The notes under the pieces: model-generated
What the model saw: the letters and a program-made list of their open reading frames with translations, nothing else
What the model was told of the DNA's origin: nothing
Database searches by the model: none
Part shown: piece after piece, positions 23,966 to 38,983 of the stretch
Position numbering within the stretch: the stretch's first letter is position 1
Layout: each line of letters starts with the position of its first letter
Made by a program: the position numbers and the translations under genes
Assembly: GCF_016734765.1 (NCBI RefSeq)
Contig: NZ_JAERQE010000009.1
Coordinates: 1-64,000 of the forward strand
DNA length: 64,000 nt
Direction: 5' to 3'
From: Microvirga soli
GTDB taxonomy: Bacteria; Pseudomonadota; Alphaproteobacteria; Rhizobiales; Beijerinckiaceae

Positions 23966-24040
23966 TGGCTGGGGCGCCAGGATTCGAACCTGGGAATGGC
24001 GGTACCAAAAACCGCTGCCTTACCGCTTGGCGACGCCCCA
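23966..24040 (-). tRNA. tRNA-Gln (UUG)
   Basis: 75-base cloverleaf on the minus strand: acceptor TGGGGCG pairs with CGCCCCA, followed by discriminator G and an encoded CCA (23966-23968). The anticodon loop holds TTG within GGTTTTTGGTACC and the T arm is the standard GGTTCGAATCC. Confidence 0.96.
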
Positions 24041-24188: not shown

Positions 24189-24265
24189 CGGAGTGTAGCG
24201 CAGTCTGGTAGCGCACCACGTTCGGGACGTGGGGGTCGCAGGTTCAAATCCTGCCACTCCGACCA
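24189..24265 (+). tRNA. tRNA-Pro (CGG)
   Basis: 77-base cloverleaf: acceptor CGGAGTG pairs with CACTCCG, then discriminator A and an encoded CCA. The anticodon stem-loop CCACG-TTCGGGA-CGTGG gives anticodon CGG, and the T loop is GGTTCAAATCC. Confidence 0.96.
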
Positions 24266-35538: not shown

Positions 35539-35682
35539 CTGTCATTCCGGGGCGACCGTAGGTCGAGCCCGGAATCCATAACCGCTAATGTTGTAGAATA
35601 GAGCGCGACGCTTATCGCCGTTTCCTGAAAACGTCGTGTTTATGGTTTCCGGGCTCTCGCTACTCTCGCCCCGGAATGACAG
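35539..35682. repeat. Long palindromic intergenic repeat, family A copy 1
   Basis: It begins CTGTCATTCCGGGGC and ends GCCCCGGAATGACAG, with inner arms GCCCGGAATCCATAA and TTTATGGTTTCCGGGC and a central spacer of about 60 bases. The whole 144 bases can fold into one long hairpin. Near-relatives lie at 38322-38451 and 38843-38983. It fills the gap between the convergent deacetylase and ribBX genes. Confidence 0.85.
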
Positions 35683-35696
35683 TGGAGGGGCTCGCC

Positions 35697-36986
35697 TCAC
35701 CCTTCGATCGGCTCCTGACCCAGAAGCTCGATGCCGAAGCCGGAGAGGCCCACATAGGAGCGGCTCGAAGTGGCAAGGTTGCGGATGGATGCGACGCCGA
35801 GATCCCGCAGGATTTGCGCGCCGAGGCCGATCTCGCGCCACTGGCTTGAGCGCATGGCCTCCGATTCCGTCTCCTCGGTTTCCGCGAAGGACGTGGTCGG
35901 AACGCCGGCCGTGCCGTCTCGCAGATAGACGAGGACGCCCCTGCCCTCCTTCACGAAACGCTGCAGGGAAGCGTTCACCGCCTTGCCGCCTTCGAACACG
36001 TCGGTGAGCGCATTGGCCCGGTGCAGGCGCACGGGAATGTTGGTGCCGTCGCCGATGCGCCCATGCACGAGTGCGATGTGCTGCACGCTGTCGAAGGGCG
36101 TCGAATAGGCATAGCCGGTGAACGAGCCCCATTGCGTCTCCACCGGGAAGGTGGCGATGCGCTCGACGAGCTTTTCCCGCGCCTGGCGATAGGCGATGAG
36201 ATCGGCGACCGAGATGCGCTTGAGGTTGTGGGTCTCGGCAAAGGCGTCGATCTGCCGGCCCTTCATCACCGTGCCGTCGTCGTTGGCCAGCTCGCAGATC
36301 ACGCCCACCGGCGGCAGATCGGCGAGCTTGCACAGGTCGACCGCGGCTTCCGTATGGCCTGAGCGCATGAGCACGCCGCCGTCCTTGGCGATCAGCGGAA
36401 AGACGTGGCCGGGCCGCACGAAGTCGGTCGCGCCCATGTTGTTGTTGGCGAGCGCCCGTACCGTGTTCGAACGCTGCTCGGCCGAGATGCCGGTGGTGAG
36501 CCCGTGCTTCACGTCGACAGTGACTGTAAAGGCCGTGCCGAGCGGCGCATCGTTCGAGGCGACCATCGGGTCGAGCCGCAGGCGGCGGGCTTCCGCGGCA
36601 GTGAGCGGCGCGCAGACGATGCCGCAGGTATTGCGGATGATGAAGGCCATCTTCTCCGGCGTGCAGAGGGAGGCGGCGACGATCAGATCGCCCTCGTTCT
36701 CGCGGTCGTCGTCGTCCGTGACGATAACGATCTCGCCGCGGGCGAAGGCCTCGATGGCATCGGTGACGGAATTGGGCATCAGGGCCTCCTTGGCGGCCGG
36801 GGGCAGGAAGTCGTTGGGCGTGACGGCGCCACGGGTTTCACGGGCGATCAAATCCGCCGTGTCCCGCGAGAGCCAAGCCTGTTCGGAATTGCACATCTGG
36901 GTAATGGCGCCGGGGGTGACGCCGATCCTCCGCGCGAATTCCACGCGTGAGACGCCATTGCGGGAGAGCCACTCAGCCAGTTTCAT
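35697..36986 (-). CDS. ribB: HTH-RibB-RibX fusion: 3,4-dihydroxy-2-butanone 4-phosphate synthase
   Basis: 429 residues in three parts. Residues 1-60 form a Cro/C1-type helix-turn-helix (GVSRVEFARRIGVTPGAITQ). Residues 70-280 are RibB, which makes a riboflavin precursor from ribulose 5-phosphate: DDDDRENEGDLI acidic loop, GHVFPLIA and RSGHTEAAVDL. Residues about 295-429 resemble GTP cyclohydrolase II but lack the zinc cysteines (HRANALTDVFEGG instead of a CxxxxxxxxxCxC pattern), matching the alphaproteobacterial RibX domain, not an active RibA. Met70 is preceded by a perfect AAGGAGG, so an HTH-less enzyme may also be made. A 10-base inverted repeat lies upstream at 37009-37031. Confidence 0.88.
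   Translation of the reverse strand: MKLAEWLSRNGVSRVEFARRIGVTPGAITQMCNSEQAWLSRDTADLIARETRGAVTPNDFLPPAAKEALMPNSVTDAIEAFARGEIVIVTDDDDRENEGDLIVAASLCTPEKMAFIIRNTCGIVCAPLTAAEARRLRLDPMVASNDAPLGTAFTVTVDVKHGLTTGISAEQRSNTVRALANNNMGATDFVRPGHVFPLIAKDGGVLMRSGHTEAAVDLCKLADLPPVGVICELANDDGTVMKGRQIDAFAETHNLKRISVADLIAYRQAREKLVERIATFPVETQWGSFTGYAYSTPFDSVQHIALVHGRIGDGTNIPVRLHRANALTDVFEGGKAVNASLQRFVKEGRGVLVYLRDGTAGVPTTSFAETEETESEAMRSSQWREIGLGAQILRDLGVASIRNLATSSRSYVGLSGFGIELLGQEPIEG
36777..36791 (-). promoter_or_regulatory. Internal ribosome site and start codon for RibBX without HTH
   Basis: On the minus strand AAGGAGG (36785-36791) stands five bases before ATG 36779, the canonical RibB start (MPNSVTDAIEAFARGE). 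The full-length start at 36986 has no comparable site. Internal initiation is therefore credible and may be the main product. Confidence 0.6.
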
Positions 36987-37008
36987 GGTGATGGCTTAGC
37001 CGAACGCA

Positions 37009-37031
37009 GGATTTTAGTAAAACTAAAATCC
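37009..37031. promoter_or_regulatory. Palindrome upstream of ribBX
   Basis: GGATTTTAGT and ACTAAAATCC are exact reverse complements around a three-base centre (AAA). It lies 22 bases before the full-length start codon. It could be a protein operator, possibly for the HTH carried by the gene's own product, or an mRNA hairpin in the leader; there is no T-run that would make it a terminator of aroC. Confidence 0.5.
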
Positions 37032-38842: not shown

Positions 38843-38983
38843 CTGTCATTCCGGGGTGAGCGTAGCGAGAGCCCGGAATCCATAACCGCTAACGGTCCAA
38901 GAAGAGGCGTATAGCTGTTCGCCCTTTCCTGAGGTGTCATATTTATGGATTCCGGGCTCCGCTGCGCAGCCCCGGAATGACAG
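38843..38983. repeat. Long palindromic intergenic repeat, family A copy 2
   Basis: CTGTCATTCCGGGGTGAGCG at the left end pairs with AGCCCCGGAATGACAG at the right; inner arms are GCCCGGAATCCATAACCGC and TTTATGGATTCCGGGC. Its arms are closely similar to those at 35539-35682 and its central part differs. Confidence 0.85.

Follow-up and report, generated by a model that had tools for sequence, protein, structure and literature searches.

Bacterial riboflavin genes are usually described as being controlled by flavin mononucleotide (FMN) riboswitches. PutA, BirA, and NadR, known as trigger enzymes or single-target regulators, are metabolic enzymes that carry a DNA-binding domain and repress genes of their own pathways. 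According to an excerpt of PMC8249747, PutA binds only to the spacer between its own gene and putP. We analyzed a stretch of 64,000 nucleotides (nt) from Microvirga soli (assembly GCF_016734765.1, contig NZ_JAERQE010000009.1, positions 1 to 64,000), hereafter the window, in which a single gene encodes the riboflavin enzyme RibB behind an N-terminal helix-turn-helix (HTH) head and in front of a degenerate GTP cyclohydrolase II domain (RibX). The encoded protein, HTH-RibBX, would resemble PutA, BirA, and NadR in repressing a gene of its own pathway, and differs from them in its Cro/C1-type head, in its RibB and RibX enzyme part, in its mRNA, which is predicted to be leaderless, and in a conserved internal start that would add a head-less form. 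As a whole, the locus is best explained by an HTH-RibBX that would repress its own leaderless promoter, with an internal start that would add head-less enzyme. We give this reading, which is built on sequence comparison, a probability of about 0.6.

Three described systems come close to this arrangement from the side of riboflavin. The archaeal RbkR, an HTH-riboflavin kinase, is listed as a bifunctional gene regulator and enzyme in an excerpt of PMC8305020. It likewise has an HTH head on a riboflavin-pathway enzyme, and differs in being archaeal and in its enzyme, which is riboflavin kinase instead of RibB; the M. soli protein, whose six listed Pfam families include no riboflavin kinase, is not an RbkR. 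In Wolbachia, the Xre-type proteins wBmxR1 and wBmxR2 bind the ribA promoter and activate a ribA reporter, and do not bind their own promoters (excerpt of PMC3518464). They likewise place an Xre-type HTH on a riboflavin gene of an alphaproteobacterium, but are separate proteins unfused to an enzyme. RibBX itself is described in PMC10012899, which refers to Brutinel 2013 and Nouwen 2021, as having an X domain that lacks cyclohydrolase activity and is said to influence RibB activity. It corresponds to residues 70–429 here; the excerpt of that paper mentions no DNA-binding head. The literature searched, which covers few of the subscription journals, gave no account of a RibB with a DNA-binding head, nor of such a head on CoaBC, and a term search found no helix-turn-helix in two recent riboflavin reviews (PMC12542839, PMC13028884).

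The HTH-RibBX gene and its candidate operator

The HTH-RibBX gene (35697–36986, minus strand) is an open reading frame (ORF) of 429 codons with a leaderless-type start at the ATG at 36986, and is the only match to PF00926 (RibB) in the whole genome. Its closest named proteins are from Microvirga and have 98% identity. The RibB part (36189–36761, minus strand) matches PF00926 over residues 76–266 with 271.2 bits (cut-off 26.4) and TIGR00506 with 238.7 bits (cut-off 177.45). Residues 276–424 (35715–36161, minus strand) match the GTP-cyclohydrolase-II-like family PF00925 with 96 bits, a domain overlooked in the initial annotation. In the alignment with the RibBA structure 4i14, the stretch HSECLTGDVFGSRRCDCG, whose cysteines we take to be zinc ligands, corresponds to HRANALTDVFEGGKAVN, in which no cysteine remains. 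With these cysteines lost, the protein does not qualify as a bifunctional RibBA. Two other PF00925 matches, separate from HTH-RibBX and assigned by profile instead of by cysteines, are present in the genome on C87 (177.9 bits) and C77 (64.7 bits). From the lost cysteine stretch and these two matches, the protein is identified as RibBX with a head, residues 70–429 being RibBX, i.e., RibB followed by a degenerate GTP cyclohydrolase II domain. A sequence search of solved structures with the RibX part alone gave no match at an E-value of 0.01. The AlphaFold model of the full-length protein is poor, with a mean predicted local distance difference test (pLDDT) score of 66, and the structure of the head was taken from a second model.

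Upstream of the ATG at 36986 lies a perfect 10-nt inverted repeat, GGATTTTAGT-TTT-ACTAAAATCC, which the initial annotation had also overlooked. This candidate operator (37009–37031, assigned to no strand) spans 23–45 nt before the ATG, with its centre 34 nt before the start. Relatives carry TTT(T/C)AGT-n3-ACT(A/G)AAA or variants upstream of the head. We scored the best match to this pattern (maximum 14) at 224 ribB loci, 116 with a head (HTH+) and 108 without (HTH−), L010 being left out as it is cut by a contig end. All 116 HTH+ loci score 10–14, while 102 of the 108 HTH− loci score 7–9 and the other six 10–11; shuffled sequences score about 8. The picture is the same when only distinct sequences are counted (108 HTH+ and 102 HTH−). 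The scan covered 130 nt at HTH+ loci and 330 nt at HTH− loci, and its greater length therefore favours chance matches in the HTH− group. On a FastTree phylogeny of RibBX built without the head, nine independent HTH+/HTH− pairs were found on starred branches, and the operator changes in the same way as the head in a mean of 8.8 of them (median p 0.004). The tree holds 193 of the 225 loci after removal of short, identical, and more than 98% similar sequences (208 before the last step). A later set of HTH-RibB genes from other families comprises 17 genes, of which one (L279) repeats L079; the operator score is at least 11 in all 16 new ones.

Judging by the own genome, the site is confined to this gene: a single exact copy of the operator is present there, with nine further matches at two mismatches against 17 for a reversed-pattern control. 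Among 149 genomes of the family, 15 have a perfect operator, one each, and 13 of these lie before an HTH-RibB gene. The remaining two are in G120, before an HTH start cut by a contig end, and in G140, inside another ORF. A wider regulon was considered and none was found, the exact operator being single in the own genome and the one off-target site of the family lying within a coding ORF. These comparisons support a tie between the operator-like site and the presence of the head. The initial annotation had supposed that the DNA-binding head might control its own gene, and this idea gains comparative support: autoregulation at the site at 37009–37031 is very probable on the comparative evidence.

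The operator candidate coincides with a promoter-like arrangement. A −35-like TTTACT (37016–37021, minus strand) lies inside the inverted repeat, and a −10-like TAAGCC (36993–36998, minus strand) follows after 17 nt, 6 nt before the ATG. When 96 thinned headed genes, used also in the counts below, are aligned on the first ATG, T is found at −35 in 86%, T at −34 in 71%, and G at −33 in 50%, and the −10 side has T at −12 in 72%, A at −11 in 77%, T at −7 in 51%, and C at −1 in 82%. TA begins at −13, −12, or −11 in 79 of the 96 genes, against about 15 in shuffles. With this 17-nt spacing, transcription is predicted to begin with the A of the ATG itself (36986), and the mRNA would probably be leaderless. 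This would explain the missing ribosome site, which the initial annotation had rightly noted: no Shine-Dalgarno (SD)-like motif precedes the ATG at 36986, and among the 96 genes an SD of at least 5 nt is found before the first ATG in none and one of 4 nt in 21. In Methylorubrum extorquens, 7% of mRNAs are leaderless (excerpt of PMC9320726).

The putative DNA-binding head, its predicted specificity, and its distribution

The head comprises residues 1–62 (36801–36986, minus strand). Residues 1–69 alone match Pfam HTH_3 with an E-value of 3.6e-5 and 24.1 bits, above the cut-off of 23. The AlphaFold2 model of residues 1–62 has five helices and a mean pLDDT of 90, and residues 25–33 (36888–36914, minus strand) form the predicted recognition helix. 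The structural neighbours are mostly Cro/C1-type regulators, the best being VIA (Z 9.4), followed by CylR2 (Z 9.1), YdaS (Z 8.7), and P22 c2 (Z 8.0); HigA and the 434 repressor are also among them (Z 7.5–9.1). A sequence search of solved structures with the head profile gave no match at an E-value of 0.01. Together with PF00926, HTH_3 and the head model bear out the initial description of an N-terminal HTH joined to a complete RibB domain.

Across 16 genes of the Microvirga group, the median ratio of nonsynonymous to synonymous substitution rates (dN/dS) is 0.07 for the HTH, 0.05 for RibB, 0.11 for RibX, and 0.61 for the linker. The HTH codons are thus under purifying selection, whose absence the initial annotation had named as a sign against a headed product. 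This bears on the idea that only the short RibBX is translated and that the HTH region is untranslated or a remnant. Such an idea is prompted by the strong SD before Met70 and the lack of one before the ATG at 36986. It is contradicted by the purifying selection, by 15 of the 62 HTH columns being invariant across 24 diverse rows, by the absence of any stop or frameshift between head and RibB in all 117 HTH+ loci (of 225), by the operator being tied to the head, and by the leaderless promoter geometry; we regard it as highly improbable. An arrangement of HTH and RibB as separate neighbouring genes was likewise not seen, all 117 HTH+ loci being in frame and the stop-flagged frames of the first listing not having been examined singly.

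The head and its site tend to vary together. Recognition-helix residue 30, which presumably corresponds to Gln33 of the 434 repressor, tends to follow base 4 of the operator in sequence comparison. In the table for this residue, which leaves the Leu30 loci L145 and L043 uncounted (an earlier covariation set has one row per distinct head DNA), C/C stands at base 4 in 30 of 30 rows with Ala, Gly, or Ser. The 62 rows with Gln or His have T/T in 43, C/C in 3, and mixed or other bases in 16. M. soli itself has Gln30. All eight genes of a divergent HTH-RibBX group (L265–L270, L272, and L273) carry a different palindrome roughly 16 nt ahead of the ATG, namely TATTAGC-n3-GCTAATA or a close variant. 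The two Leu30 headed loci match the common operator poorly, and L043 has an ATTGAG-CTCAAG-like palindrome instead.

These data also bear on the proposal that the palindrome serves a separate regulator, as the ribA promoter does for wBmxR1 and wBmxR2, and that the head is needed only for assembly or for contacts of the RibB dimer. Separate Xre-type regulators of a riboflavin gene do exist (excerpt of PMC3518464), and enzymes of the HppE type, whose HTH-like domain may serve in this way, are among the fold matches of the head. In independent lineages without the head, however, the operator is missing as well. Residue 30 of the recognition helix tends to vary with the operator base, and the divergent head is accompanied by a different palindrome. 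We consider a separate regulator improbable.

Headed RibB occurs well beyond the Methylobacteriaceae. A search of that family had been suggested initially. Among the 80 named loci, most of those from Methylobacterium and Methylorubrum lack the arrangement. The family sample represents 144 of 149 genomes with 145 loci (G019 twice), those of G006, G031, G050, and G107 being fragments. Left out were G131, G073, and G138, where the ribB match is cut or partial, and G120 and G140, where it is outside the matches listed. Eight HTH+ locus pairs have identical head DNA, each pair coming from two copies of one genome. At the level of the order, the head profile matches 90 of 397 genomes at an E-value of 1e-6. 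Among the matches listed, 62 places have at least 95 bits, all in frames of at least 397 residues, and the weaker ones include other fusions and stand-alone proteins. A class-wide draw gave the head profile in 13 of 385 genomes at an E-value of 1e-7 and a phylum-wide draw in nine of 299, eight of the nine being from the order; both draws count matches to the head profile, RibB having been looked at for L277 and L278 of the class alone. At an E-value of 0.001, the head profile matches nothing else in the own genome. Microvirga aerophila, M. subterranea, and M. pudoricolor (L014, L015, and L033) have neither head nor operator, and their RibBX is 86–93% identical to that of the window.

The internal start and the proposed mechanism

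As stated in the initial annotation, AAGGAGG precedes Met70. This internal SD (36785–36791, minus strand) is followed after 5 nt by an ATG (36777–36779, minus strand), from which the head-less RibBX would begin. An in-frame internal start with an SD of at least 4 nt is found in 84 of the 96 HTH+ relatives, against 15% of 1440 background windows, i.e., the same search made in other parts of genes. With an SD of at least 5 nt, the figures are 56 of 96 and 5.5%. An SD of at least 4 nt is present in 14 of the 16 new HTH-RibB genes from other families and in seven of the eight genes of the divergent group. Head-less relatives seem to begin near the position of Met70 (read by eye and uncounted), pointing to a short form that is complete as an enzyme. 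From these conserved start signals we infer that two proteins may be made from the one gene.

Alternatively, the autorepressor could be made only as the full-length protein, and the internal start could be a relic of the ribB start from before the fusion or a by-product of a linker rich in Lys/Arg and Glu. The start near Met70 that head-less relatives seem to have would fit a relic. So do the 12 of 96 HTH+ relatives that lack an internal SD of at least 4 nt, and the synonymous recoding of the window gene, in which 54% of 500 recodings score as high; its SD is no more than residues and codon bias would give. In Microvirga, the amino acids almost dictate the SD, leaving nothing for synonymous choice to add. 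The recoding test covered 70 of 80 HTH+ loci, thinned at 95%. In eight genes of the Xanthobacter type, on the other hand, the rare codon pair CGA-GGT keeps GAGGT, and none of 500 recodings of each gene reaches the motif. A relic would also be expected to decay, and an SD of at least 5 nt is kept in 56 of 96 relatives, against 5.5% of background windows, in a linker that evolves fast. Rare Arg codons made up of SD letters are over-used in the SD zone (CGA 14 of 61 against 30 of 2438), as are CGA, AGA, AGG, GGA, and GGG taken together, in both cases partly owing to the related Xanthobacter-type genes. A start signature in the choice of Val codons was sought and dropped: GTG, with 25 of the 64 Val codons in that zone of the start against 1308 of 2967, shows no excess, and the internal start is not argued on it. 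On this evidence, a relic or by-product is unlikely, though it is the rival to which we give some weight.

In the mechanism that we favour, self-repression combined with an internal start, transcription would begin at the A of the first ATG, as judged from promoter geometry, and leaderless translation would yield HTH-RibBX. RibB acts as a dimer. Two heads, brought together by the RibB dimer, would occupy the palindrome at the −35 box and keep RNA polymerase out. HTH-RibBX would thereby repress its own gene and, judging by the genome, no other. On the same mRNA, the conserved internal SD and start codon would, somewhat more probably than not, direct synthesis of head-less RibBX. This form would supply enzyme and could dilute the heads in mixed dimers, which, RibB being dimeric, would weaken DNA binding. 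Repression could then vary with the balance of headed and head-less protein, and also with ligands of RibB or RibX. Our guess is that it probably responds to the state of the pathway via RibB or RibX, e.g., through a substrate, a product, or a flavin.

Aside from the missing SDs, the recodings, and the Val codons mentioned above, several observations weigh against this mechanism. For the operator, the scores of the two groups overlap at 10–11 (24 of 116 HTH+ and six of 108 HTH− loci), and the pattern was derived from the same sequences on which it was scored. The best match of the HTH+ locus L145 is at −119 and likely due to chance. Among the 112 HTH+ loci scoring at least 11, 64 have their best site centred at −31 to −36 and 29 at −56 to −62, while the other 19 have it elsewhere; the −35 box is thus not always covered. 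The RibBX tree was made by FastTree only. For the promoter, both hexamers of the window itself (TTTACT and TAAGCC) are weak, and no promoter is found in the window by a strict sigma-70 scan. For the head, HTH_3 reaches only 19.9 bits within the whole protein, under the cut-off, and the best Foldseek E-value is just 0.057. A Z-score near 9 can reflect merely a common helical arrangement, and the HppE-type enzymes show that HTH_3-type folds occur in enzymes, too. For the specificity, 19 of the 62 Gln/His rows lack T/T at operator base 4, and residue 30 offers five independent pairs, four or five of which change in the same way and none in the opposite way, too few for significance.

Related fusions and implications

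Heads related to that of HTH-RibBX are found in other contexts. Seven loci from another family of the order (L261–L264 and L274–L276) encode a related head joined to CoaBC, an enzyme of coenzyme A biosynthesis. The CoaBC assignment was tested with Pfam Flavoprotein, DFP, and HTH_3 for L261 alone, and the other six were assigned by their alike sequence. By eye, a clear ATTACAT-ATGTAAT-like palindrome can be seen immediately upstream of the ATG at four of the seven loci and an imperfect one at a fifth; at the other two, none is visible. These fusions suggest that the same head device has been used more than once for coenzyme enzymes. Stand-alone HTH proteins related to the head also exist. L254 encodes one of about 90 residues and has upstream TTTCAGCTTGACTGAAT, an operator of the same type as that of the RibBX genes. 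L255–L258, from other families of the order, encode proteins of 65–67 residues, and the L255 protein also has a weak match to Pfam YdaS_toxin.

We tentatively propose, at somewhat less than even odds, that at least two fusions of a portable Cro/C1-type head, one with RibBX and one with CoaBC, may have given coenzyme-biosynthesis enzymes that would repress only their own leaderless promoter, as a protein-based counterpart of riboswitches built into the enzyme. In RibBX, the internal start would set the ratio of headed to head-less protein, mixed dimers would tune repression, and the system may sense pathway flux. An FMN riboswitch would serve the same purpose as HTH-RibBX, namely, feedback on a riboflavin gene. 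It was tried as a candidate and rejected: no RF00050 is present in the window, where Rfam gathering scores give two transfer RNA genes only, or in the own genome. Among the 149 family genomes, seven have an FMN riboswitch, none of them near the ribB match listed for that genome.

Two further features of the window were seen. The two transfer RNA genes (24189–24262 and 23969–24040) are on opposite strands, about 150 nt apart. Facing ends of TGTCATTCCGGGGC, about 130 nt apart, lie at 35540–35681, just downstream of ribB, and again at 38846–38980. They are part of a repeat with 38 exact genomic matches, against 0 for the control; several of the matches form facing pairs about 120–135 nt apart.

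The locus and its relatives offer material for comparison. The three head-less Microvirga species form a natural comparison with the headed ones, and the tendency of residue 30 to follow operator base 4 provides natural variants of specificity. If the proposed mechanism is true, the gene would be a compact test of how a leaderless and an SD start sharing one mRNA determine the proportion of regulator and enzyme, and RibX would gain a possible role as a sensor. A self-contained enzyme-repressor, if true, would account for the control of ribB in many Rhizobiales-type bacteria.
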